From Streptomyces mirabilis (GTDB lineage Bacteria; Actinomycetota; Actinomycetes; Streptomycetales; Streptomycetaceae), in assembly GCF_039503195.1 (NCBI RefSeq), contig NZ_JBCJKP010000001.1:930001-994000 (forward strand): DNA of 64,000 bases. The letters run 5' to 3'. The notes under the pieces were generated by a model. It was given only the letters and a program-made list of their open reading frames with translations. It was not told the DNA's origin and did no database searches. Positions 58,375 through 60,383 of this stretch are shown one piece after another; within the stretch, counting starts at the first letter, position 1, and each line of letters opens with the position of its first letter. A program made the position numbers and the translations under genes.

Positions 58375-58834
58375 TTTGTTCCCTATGTTGCCGACAGGCT
58401 TCGCCGGCGATCCGGTCACTCGCCACCACAGGGCGCTGACCGGCCGTAAACGTCCCATGGCCGCTCGAAAGGGGGGCATCACCGCCTCATCTCCCGGGCC
58501 GGGCAAGGACGCAGTTCACTCAGCGGGCACCGGCGGTGTCGGCGGCTCGAGGGCACGATCGCCGAGGGGTCCGTCGCGGGGAATGCAATTCGACGCCGGG
58601 TCCGACTCCTTGGGCGGGTCGGGCCGGGCGCGCGTCACGTGCCGTACGGGCCGAGGGTGACGACCGGGACCGCCCCGACCAGCCCCGATCCGGGCGGGCG
58701 TCAGCCGCCCAACGCCAAAAGAAAGTAAAGGGAGTTACCCACGGCACCACGGCCCACTTCCCGCACCCCAGGGCCCACCTGCTCCGCTTGACTTCATTGT
58801 CCCGATATGCGTAGGTTAGGTACGGGTTGAACAG

Positions 58835-58848
58835 AAAACATCCGTTTT
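58835..58848. promoter_or_regulatory. Dyad AAAAC-ATCC-GTTTT
   Basis: This small perfect inverted repeat lies in the AT-rich promoter-like part of the long gap, about 300 bp upstream of the repeat protein start codon. It could be a regulator site for that gene. Confidence 0.35.
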
Positions 58849-58874
58849 ACCTGGTGAGAGCGAAACAATCTCAA

Positions 58875-58915
58875 CATCCCGACCGACTACATCCCGACCG
58901 GCGACAACCCGGTCG
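58875..58915 (+). promoter_or_regulatory. Direct repeat and hairpin in the leader of the repeat protein gene
   Basis: CATCCCGACCG occurs at 58875-58885 and 58890-58900. The second copy overlaps a hairpin with 7-bp arms (CGACCGG 58895-58901, CCGGTCG 58909-58915). If transcribed, this would be a structured leader about 230 nt before the start codon. Confidence 0.4.
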
Positions 58916-59144
58916 TCGGTTAACAGACGGACGGGCGCCCCGCCGCGGGGTTAGCTGCACTTCAGCAGCCTGGGTGGGCCCGATGCCGCATCCTCAGCGC
59001 GCGAGTCGGCGACGGTATCTCCCGTCACTCTCAACGCCGATGTACCGGACCCTTATCGCGAACGTCTCAGTCTCCATGCTGTCGACGTCACCGCGGCCGT
59101 GCAGAGCCGGCACCTGTTCTACGCTCCCGGGAAGGGAAAGCACC

Positions 59145-59567
59145 ATGCGGATCATCACTTCAATGACGTTCCGGCTGGTCGCCAGCCTGTTCGCCGCTCT
59201 GGCCCTGGCGTTCGGCACAGCCGGCATCGCCAGCGCGACCAGCTCCCATTCGGATCACTCCTCCGATTACTCCTACAGCAGCAACTGGAACGACAACGGA
59301 GACCACGGCGGCGGTGACCACGGTGGTGGCGACTACGGCGGTGGAGACCACGGCGGCGGTGACCACGGTGGTGGCGACTACGGCGGTGGAGACCACGGCG
59401 GTGGAGACCACGGCGGTGGAGACCACGGTGGTGGCGACCATGGTGGTGGCGGAGACCACGGCGGCGGCGGAGACCACGGCGGCGGTGGCGGAGACCACGG
59501 CGGCGGTGGGGGCGGCCACGGCGGTGGTGGAGGCGGCCACGGCGGTGGTGGCGGTGGCGGACACTGA
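59145..59567 (+). CDS. Secreted His/Asp/Gly repeat protein (DHGGG repeats)
   Basis: This is a 140-residue protein. Residues 1-31 form a signal peptide (ITSMTFRLVASLFAALALAF core, cut after ASA). The mature chain begins with a Ser/His/Asp/Tyr-rich stretch. From about residue 52 on it consists of DHGGG-type units: nine 5-residue units, two with Tyr in place of His, then units with the glycine run growing from 3 to 4, 5, 6 and 7 towards a terminal His. At least 14 His and 13 Asp lie in the repeat part. This looks able to bind divalent metals outside the cell; I know no described family. At the DNA level a 45-bp unit is repeated perfectly (59301-59345 and 59346-59390). Confidence 0.75.
   Translation: MRIITSMTFRLVASLFAALALAFGTAGIASATSSHSDHSSDYSYSSNWNDNGDHGGGDHGGGDYGGGDHGGGDHGGGDYGGGDHGGGDHGGGDHGGGDHGGGGDHGGGGDHGGGGGDHGGGGGGHGGGGGGHGGGGGGGH
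59301..59390 (+). repeat. Perfect 45-bp tandem duplication within the DHGGG gene
   Basis: Two identical 45-bp units encode DHGGGDHGGGDYGGG twice, with the same codons throughout. This indicates a recent duplication by slippage or recombination. Confidence 0.85.
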
Positions 59568-59635
59568 CCCCAGTGGTCGTAACTGACATCTGAAGAGTGA
59601 CGGCCCGTCATCTCGCCGAAGACGACTGGCCTTGT

Positions 59636-59677
59636 CCGAACGGTCCCGTGTCGCGCCGACGACACGGGACCGTTCGG
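59636..59677. terminator. Very strong perfect hairpin
   Basis: Eighteen-base arms (CCGAACGGTCCCGTGTCG at 59636-59653 and its exact complement at 59660-59677) surround a 6-base loop, 68 bp after the repeat protein stop. It is a clear terminator between this gene and the LacI gene. Confidence 0.85.
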
Positions 59678-59750
59678 CGTGCGGCCGTACGACCTGCACC
59701 GGCGGGTCGTCCACGGTCCCGGGAGCGCCGCGACACAACCGATCGGGGGC

Positions 59751-60383
59751 GTGATGATGGTCGGTGCACGGCGCGTGACGCTGGGCGACGTCGCCACGGC
59801 GAGCGGCGTCTCGCGGGCGACCGTGAGCTTCGTCCTCAACGACGATCCGCACCAGACCATCTCTCCGACCACGAGCGAACGCGTACGCCAGGCCGCAGGC
59901 GACCTCGGGTACGTACCGCACGGGATCGCGCGGGCGCTGCGCGAGGGCTCCTCCCGCATCGTCGTGCTCAACGTCGGCTGGGGACTGGAGGGCAACTACG
60001 CGCGCAGCTACATCCGGGGCCTCGACGACGAACTCGCCGCGCACGACCATGTGCTGCTCGTCCGGCACGGCCATGGCGCGCCGCACTCGACGCAGCAGGT
60101 CCTCGACACGATCGCTCCCCGGGCCGAGCTGCGGATCGCCGCGCATCTCACCGGCCACGAGCCCGGGGCGGCGGGCGACTGGCGGGCGGGGTTCGCCGCC
60201 AACGCCGCCCTGCAGATGCGACATCTCGCCGCCGGCCACACCCACCTCGCGATGGCGTTGCCCGACCAGGACTCCCCGCTGCTGGAAGTGCGGCCGCATC
60301 GTCCGCGCGCGATTCGGCCTGACACCGGCGGGCGGCCGGCGCACCCGATGCGCCCCGACGTCGACTACGCGGCTCGGCGATAG
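59751..60383 (+). pseudogene. LacI-family regulator, C-terminally truncated
   Basis: The LacI helix-turn-helix (VTLGDVATASGVSRATVSFVLND, then TSERVRQAAGDLGYVPHGIARAL) and the start of the sugar-binding domain are normal. After LAMALPDQDSPLLEVR the sequence no longer resembles the family. It ends at 210 residues, where relatives have about 330. The rest of the effector-binding domain is absent, and a LysR gene follows directly in the opposite direction. Start GTG 59751 (GGGGG before it) or ATG 59754. The DNA-binding part could still work without ligand control. Confidence 0.75.

Follow-up and report, generated by a model that had tools for sequence, protein, structure and literature searches.

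What is the gene at 59145-59567 (+) of the 64,000-nt stretch of Streptomyces mirabilis DNA analysed here (the window), and what might a protein do whose chain beyond the signal peptide is nearly all Gly, His and Asp? As the first-pass annotation had described, a signal peptide and a repeat are encoded there, in a 140-aa ORF in which a ribosome-binding site (RBS) and a signal peptide precede a low-complexity repeat tail (Table 1).

A repeat-tailed exported protein and its relatives

The tail contains 59 Gly, 14 His, 13 Asp and 2 Tyr, in the unit order DHGGG, DHGGG, DYGGG, DHGGG, DHGGG, DYGGG, three further DHGGG, two DHG4, DHG5, DHG6, HG6, HG7 and H. The Gly runs thus measure 3 (nine times), 4, 4, 5, 6, 6 and 7, bearing out the growth from 3 to 7 before a terminal His that had been noticed at first reading. 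That reading had described DHGGG units made almost only of Asp, His and Gly; the composition agrees, but units 3 and 6 are DYGGG, which it left out. Its estimate of about 16 His was right and that of about 15 Asp one short, since the counts over residues 31-140 are 60 Gly, 16 His and 16 Asp. The mature protein has no Lys or Arg. The 45 bp that encode units 1-3 recur unchanged as units 4-6, so the array grows by unit duplication, and because GGC stands in place of GAC in the last two units, which lack Asp, part of the lengthening there is Asp-to-Gly replacement. An AlphaFold2 model built from a 10-row alignment has a mean pLDDT of 49, with residues 39-131 below 50 and no secondary structure past residue 31.

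Table 1 Features of the gene and its flanks, in window positions
Feature	Position	Strand	Basis
-35 hexamer TTGACT	58788..58793	+	TTGAC in 12/12 aligned upstream regions of the class
-10 hexamer TAGGTT, 18-nt spacer	58812..58817	+	TA..TT-like in the 12 regions by eye; putative role, from conservation and position
Conserved 5' leader, ~320 nt; transcription start putative	58824..59144	+	Aligned relatives
RBS GGAAGGGAA	59130..59138	+	Sequence; kept in relatives
Signal peptide, residues 1-31, likely cut after ASA	59145..59237	+	Sequence; conserved in relatives; AlphaFold2 helix 2-24
Linker TSSHSDHSSDYSYSSNWNDNG; aligned with the Cys loop of some relatives, cysteines absent in the window protein	59238..59300	+	
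Repeat tail, 15 units, Gly runs 3 to 7, final His	59301..59564	+	
Perfect 45-bp tandem duplication, units 1-3 = units 4-6	59301..59390	+	Codon listing
Hairpin, 17-bp perfect arms, 3' of the gene; possible terminator	59637..59676	.	Sub-threshold miRNA-model match; putative function

The downstream hairpin was not reported by a T-tail terminator scan. Adjoining it is a LacI-type regulator (59679-60383, plus strand), a 234-aa ORF that looks short and is possibly truncated, with a LacI DNA-binding domain and no Pfam ligand-binding domain at E values up to 1.

In Pfam and NCBIfam, chaplins included, the protein had no match above curated cut-offs, in keeping with the annotator's knowing no named family of this plan, and solved structures returned one chance-level match (E 0.5). 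The novelty of the family rests on the family libraries searched (Pfam, NCBIfam and Rfam). A profile of the N-terminal part (A1) had one match in the window's own genome, and the window gene is the sole member there of a small class of Streptomyces proteins predicted to be exported. In its members a conserved signal peptide is joined by a short linker to a low-complexity tail that evolves fast, and the genes lie behind a promoter and a long 5' leader that are conserved as well. The class signal peptide, MRxxTSRxFRLFASLFAALALALGGAGIASA, is matched by the window protein with an E value of 1.2e-27, the protein being itself a row of A1. Clear members (E < 1e-9) were found at 10 loci in 9 of 384 genus genomes, a count that leaves out 27 further genomes with weak A1 matches only. 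Named carriers, confirmed for 7 of 285 pattern stretches, are S. diastatochromogenes, NBC_01549, S. olivochromogenes, S. wuyuanensis, PKU-EA00015, ISL-1 and S. albiflavescens; the named genomes and the genus set overlap in these counts. The ORF is intact in S. diastatochromogenes, S. olivochromogenes, NBC_01549 and others. A signal peptide with a DHGGG-type repeat, whose recurrence had been proposed as a check, is found in other Streptomyces.

Ten proteins reached E ≤ 1e-3 in a protein database search that scored 7995, and the first four came from named Streptomyces. Database proteins P0001-P0004 (Streptomyces sp. NPDC003280, S. bungoensis, sp. NPDC059544 and sp. NPDC005122) resemble the window protein in having a signal peptide and a low-complexity Gly-rich tail. 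P0003 and P0004 have its FRL-type signal, whereas P0001 and P0002 have the other signal type, that of profile A2 (below), and P0004 carries GGGGW/GGGGY units instead of DHGGG. Six-frame searching of 392 genus genomes with the window protein matched 69 of them at E ≤ 1e-4; many weaker translated hits are other Gly-rich proteins. Scanning named genomes with the whole protein yielded 593 stretches, none confirmed, probably because low-complexity masking leaves little to score, and a protein search with residues 1-52 alone gave 8 candidates, none scored. Homology searches easily miss low-complexity secreted proteins, which search filters mask; in this case the signal peptide and the leader served as the anchors that revealed the family, the expression machinery being conserved while the tails are free to change.

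Class tails are varied: DHGn, GYGn and HGn arrays in L137, L139 and L026; HGGGG in S. albiflavescens; RDFRDNRFDN repeats ending VRIIVTLQG (G309); DDRRGFY ending VVIILR (G242); and FDRG repeats (ISL-1). Three members (L110, L114 and L142) have a leader like that of the window class and tails without the Gly/His plan. A Cys loop precedes the repeats in L143, L028, L140, L110, L142 and L141 and is absent from L137, L139, L026 and the window protein, which has no Cys. The first 34 codons have dN < dS in 43 of 45 pairs; between the window gene and six more distant relatives (L143, L028, L110, L140, L142 and L114), dN is 0.17-0.27 and dS 0.47-0.65. The exceptions are L110-L142 (0.153/0.149) and L110-L114 (0.211/0.179).

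A conserved promoter, and the leaders of two signal-peptide classes

The leader is conserved over about 300-336 nt in 9 of 12 aligned upstream regions and partly in the other 3. Gene neighbourhoods differ among class members, yet promoter and leader are kept: a GntR/FCD gene lies upstream in the window and in the syntenic orthologue L026/L052, while L027 and L028 lie downstream of a multicopper oxidase, a context other than that of the window. With positions 58770-59240 as a DNA query, 53 of 392 genomes matched at E ≤ 1e-3. Long matches occurred in six (G000, G394, G064, G309, G236 and G242), each at the class gene, and partial ones at class genes of G034 and G297; the remainder are short, about 25-65 bases, and fall mostly where the query encodes the signal peptide. 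The original observation goes beyond chance, given that other genomes conserve the signal peptide, promoter and leader and that the glycine gradient recurs in relatives.

A generic sigma-70 scan did not report the TTGACT-N18-TAGGTT promoter. We rejected a WhiG-type promoter at GCCGAT, which by eye had no fitting -35 element, and a conserved small ORF within the leader, whose frames, judged by eye, are broken by indels. An Rfam search of the leader found no family at gathering score; matches to 'Prion pseudoknot', 'isrG' and miRNA models, all below that score, were set aside as repeat or hairpin artefacts. A putative RNA structure in this leader is weakly supported, as 2 of 65 predicted pairs changed on both sides and the fold has a z score of -1.44 against shuffles, 6 of 100 of which were as good. 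The length of the leader suggests regulation of translation or message stability.

A second, larger class, marked by an RRLVA signal (A2), has a similar protein layout and a separate leader of its own. Comparison of the A1 and A2 profiles gave 94.5%, but over 33 columns only, corresponding to the signal peptide. A2 matched 45 of 199 genus genomes at E ≤ 1e-6, with up to 5 copies per genome; in an order-wide draw sampling 5 genera, it matched 32 of 147 genomes, all within the window's genus. The window gene matched neither the A2 signal peptide nor the A2 leader RNA (model R1, below), the hits in its own genome being three other loci. These genes (L102/L221, L174/L222 and L104/L223, at 5.69, 3.27 and 9.51 Mb of C1) each lie directly behind a matching leader RNA, and their tails are, respectively, FDHH...VIIVL, NNGFG...VVVVVP and a short Trp/His tail. 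Altogether 85 distinct proteins were extracted, 12 by A1 and 73 by A2. The 84 without masked residues comprise 24 Gly-rich proteins, 28 with a hydrophobic C-terminal end and 32 others; 46 of the 84 carry a Cys-x(4-16)-Cys loop.

The 3' part of the A2 leader, about 140 nt (for example L160:1702-1841, minus strand), is common to 35 genes, chosen for two motifs from the 73 A2-class proteins, and is a candidate new cis-regulatory RNA. Over the 23 pairs of the alignment consensus, standard pairs fill 86.0% of cells, against 31.3-56.8% when the structure is slid, although pair counts lean towards a structure taken from its own consensus. The covariation score of 0.151 was reached by none of 500 shuffles, and slid versions gave up to 0.113. 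Other measures separate less: 22 of 500 shuffles attained its 8 pairs changed on both sides, 96 of 500 attained its further pair types, two slid versions had 20 and 21 cells with both sides changed against 20 for the structure itself, and folding of the gapped alignment kept only 3 pairs. Covariance model R1 gave 15 matches in 61 genomes at E ≤ 1e-3, all directly before an A2-class gene. Six lie outside the training set (a second copy in G064, G033:C16, G000 at 5.69 and 9.51 Mb, G078 and G003:C9). Under stricter filters, 12 of 27 A2 matches in the R1-searched genomes had no R1 match. The two conserved 5' leaders, neither with an Rfam match, are candidate regulators.

Glycine gradient and tail composition

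A content of at least 40% Gly and six Gly runs beyond residue 38 qualified 25 of the 84 proteins for assessing the gradient. Towards the C-terminus the runs lengthen in 24 of the 25 (permutation p < 0.05 in 19), a sign test giving 1.5e-6 with kinship ignored. When proteins were clustered by signal-peptide identity, the trend was positive in 17 of 18 clusters at 90%, 10 of 11 at 80% and 2 of 2 at 70%. In one A2-class member, L182, the trend is reversed. The control is weak: among 33 Gly-rich stretches, the seven judged family-like (L030, L044, L118, L165, L215, L217 and L219) were all positive, and the other 26, some in wrong frames, comprised 12 positive, 9 negative and 5 zero. Two Gly-rich proteins with GWGWGD units outside both classes (L122 and L130) have Gly runs that shrink towards the C-terminus. 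A 180-aa protein on the minus strand of L168 is a Tyr version of the plan, with YGGGG units and Gly runs rising from 2 to 8.

Orientation relative to the replication fork was assigned on chromosome-sized contigs with dnaA near the middle, outward replication being assumed. The trend is positive in all five members checked, head-on (the window gene and L028, the latter alone at permutation p = 0.06) and co-directional (L035, L151 and L038). Replication-fork slippage was therefore rejected as the cause, the trend having the same sign in both orientations among these five, and fork polarity is a less likely explanation than selection or an effect of the coding strand.

Eight residue types (Gly, His, Asp, Tyr, Ser, Asn, Arg and Trp) account for 2262 of the 2329 residues in the Gly-rich tails, 24 from the two classes together; Glu occurs once, Lys once and Gln three times. 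Such a family offers natural variants for asking which features of Gly/His/Asp repeats are under selection.

Candidate functions

The reading we tentatively favour, while granting it somewhat less than an even chance, is a disordered protein of the extracellular matrix or coat. After export the protein would remain external to the hyphae and form part of a hydrated matrix or coat, with Asp, His and Tyr as sticky points on flexible glycine spacers, and the lengthening spacer would leave the free C-terminal end loosest; bridging through divalent metals or protonated His is plausible. In favour are the intact ORFs in other species, the excess of dS over dN in most pairs, tails that change while the residue alphabet stays, the recurring gradient, the predicted disorder and the retained promoter and leader. 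Against it, no neighbour among those scanned consistently indicates coat, development or metals, the class is rare, some tails depart from the plan, two of the 45 pairs have dN > dS and the gradient control is weak. Given its presence in 9 of 384 genomes, the class is not a core structural protein. A bolder version, possible but speculative, is a genus-specific, exported, self-diversifying low-complexity set, perhaps with structured leaders, whose graded tails would form condensates or gels with stickiness falling along the chain, tuned by pH or metal.

Several known systems bear comparison. Chaplins and rodlins are likewise small secreted Streptomyces proteins, and the likeness extends to a candidate role in a surface coat; the window protein differs in having no match to a chaplin or other Pfam domain above cut-off and no hydrophobic domain in its tail, although 28 of the 84 relatives have a hydrophobic C-terminal end. 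Squid-beak GHGxY proteins and plant glycine-rich wall proteins are extracellular, with tandem units and Gly spacers bearing His or Tyr. They would work alike without being members of the family: the window protein is bacterial with DHG units, and a sequence relation is not claimed.

Metal binding by the window protein is suggested by its composition. SmbP and Hpn are bacterial His-rich metal-binding proteins, similarly small and repeat-like, and differ in that the window protein is Gly-dominated and without Glu, and variable in length among its relatives. An extracellular buffer that stores or detoxifies Zn, Cu or Ni through chelation by Asp-His pairs is possible though unlikely. The 16 His and 16 Asp of the chain speak for it, as does the keeping of Asp and His in Gly-rich tails nearly devoid of Glu, Lys and Gln; several relatives, however, mostly have Arg, Asn, Phe or Tyr in place of His. 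Among 20 neighbour proteins scanned from 11 regions, three of which (L062, L063 and L067) carry Gly-rich proteins belonging to neither class, only those of L053 and L069 look metal-related: a multicopper oxidase (L053:10692-12407, minus strand), which by blastp is also the neighbour in L054, and an ArsP_1 permease with a DUF1980 protein near the family gene of G309 (L069:6831-8662, minus strand). The two relatives adjoining the oxidase and the third near ArsP_1/DUF1980 count in favour of a buffer. The neighbours of the window gene and of the scanned L052 orthologues are ordinary regulators, enzymes, an EamA transporter or proteins of no family, with no metal genes. The suggested recurrence beside metal-transport genes thus found no support in the neighbours scanned. 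Regulatory sites were sought with three patterns only: a Zur-like pattern has no match in the window, a Nur-like pattern has 4 against 6.08 expected by chance, none near the gene, and an iron box (DmdR/IdeR) was rejected, as no full box occurs in the window with up to 3 mismatches and the half site at 58811-58820 is the -10 region, altered in relatives. With these patterns and among the neighbours scanned, nothing points consistently to metals, whether a metal-responsive promoter or adjoining metal genes across relatives.

We consider it improbable that the tail is mostly neutral filler, in which case a conserved export signal would drag along a weakly selected tract prone to slippage. Repeat number does vary between near-identical orthologues (140 aa in the window, 121 aa in L137), the 45-bp duplication is perfect, and 2062 of 2329 tail codons are of the N-purine-pyrimidine form, as few mutational steps would give. 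However, a single step separates the GGA (76) and GGG (19) codons from Glu, of which there is only one, and the gradient is directional, keeping its sign in five members whether head-on or co-directional.

Tenecin-3, holotricin-3 and the shepherins are Gly/His-rich antimicrobial or antifungal peptides, and the window protein is also small and Gly/His-rich, with a signal peptide; in the class, too, the export signal is kept while the tails diversify. A secreted antimicrobial or antifungal peptide nevertheless seems quite improbable here, as the mature protein, with 16 Asp and no Lys or Arg, is unlike most membrane-active peptides, and no immunity or processing gene was recognised among the neighbours scanned.

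That a different frame is the real gene, the repeat having opened several (ORFs exist at 59155-59589 minus and 59314-59586 plus), can be dismissed as extremely improbable, since signal peptide, start and RBS are conserved for the 59145 frame, with dN < dS in 43 of 45 pairs.
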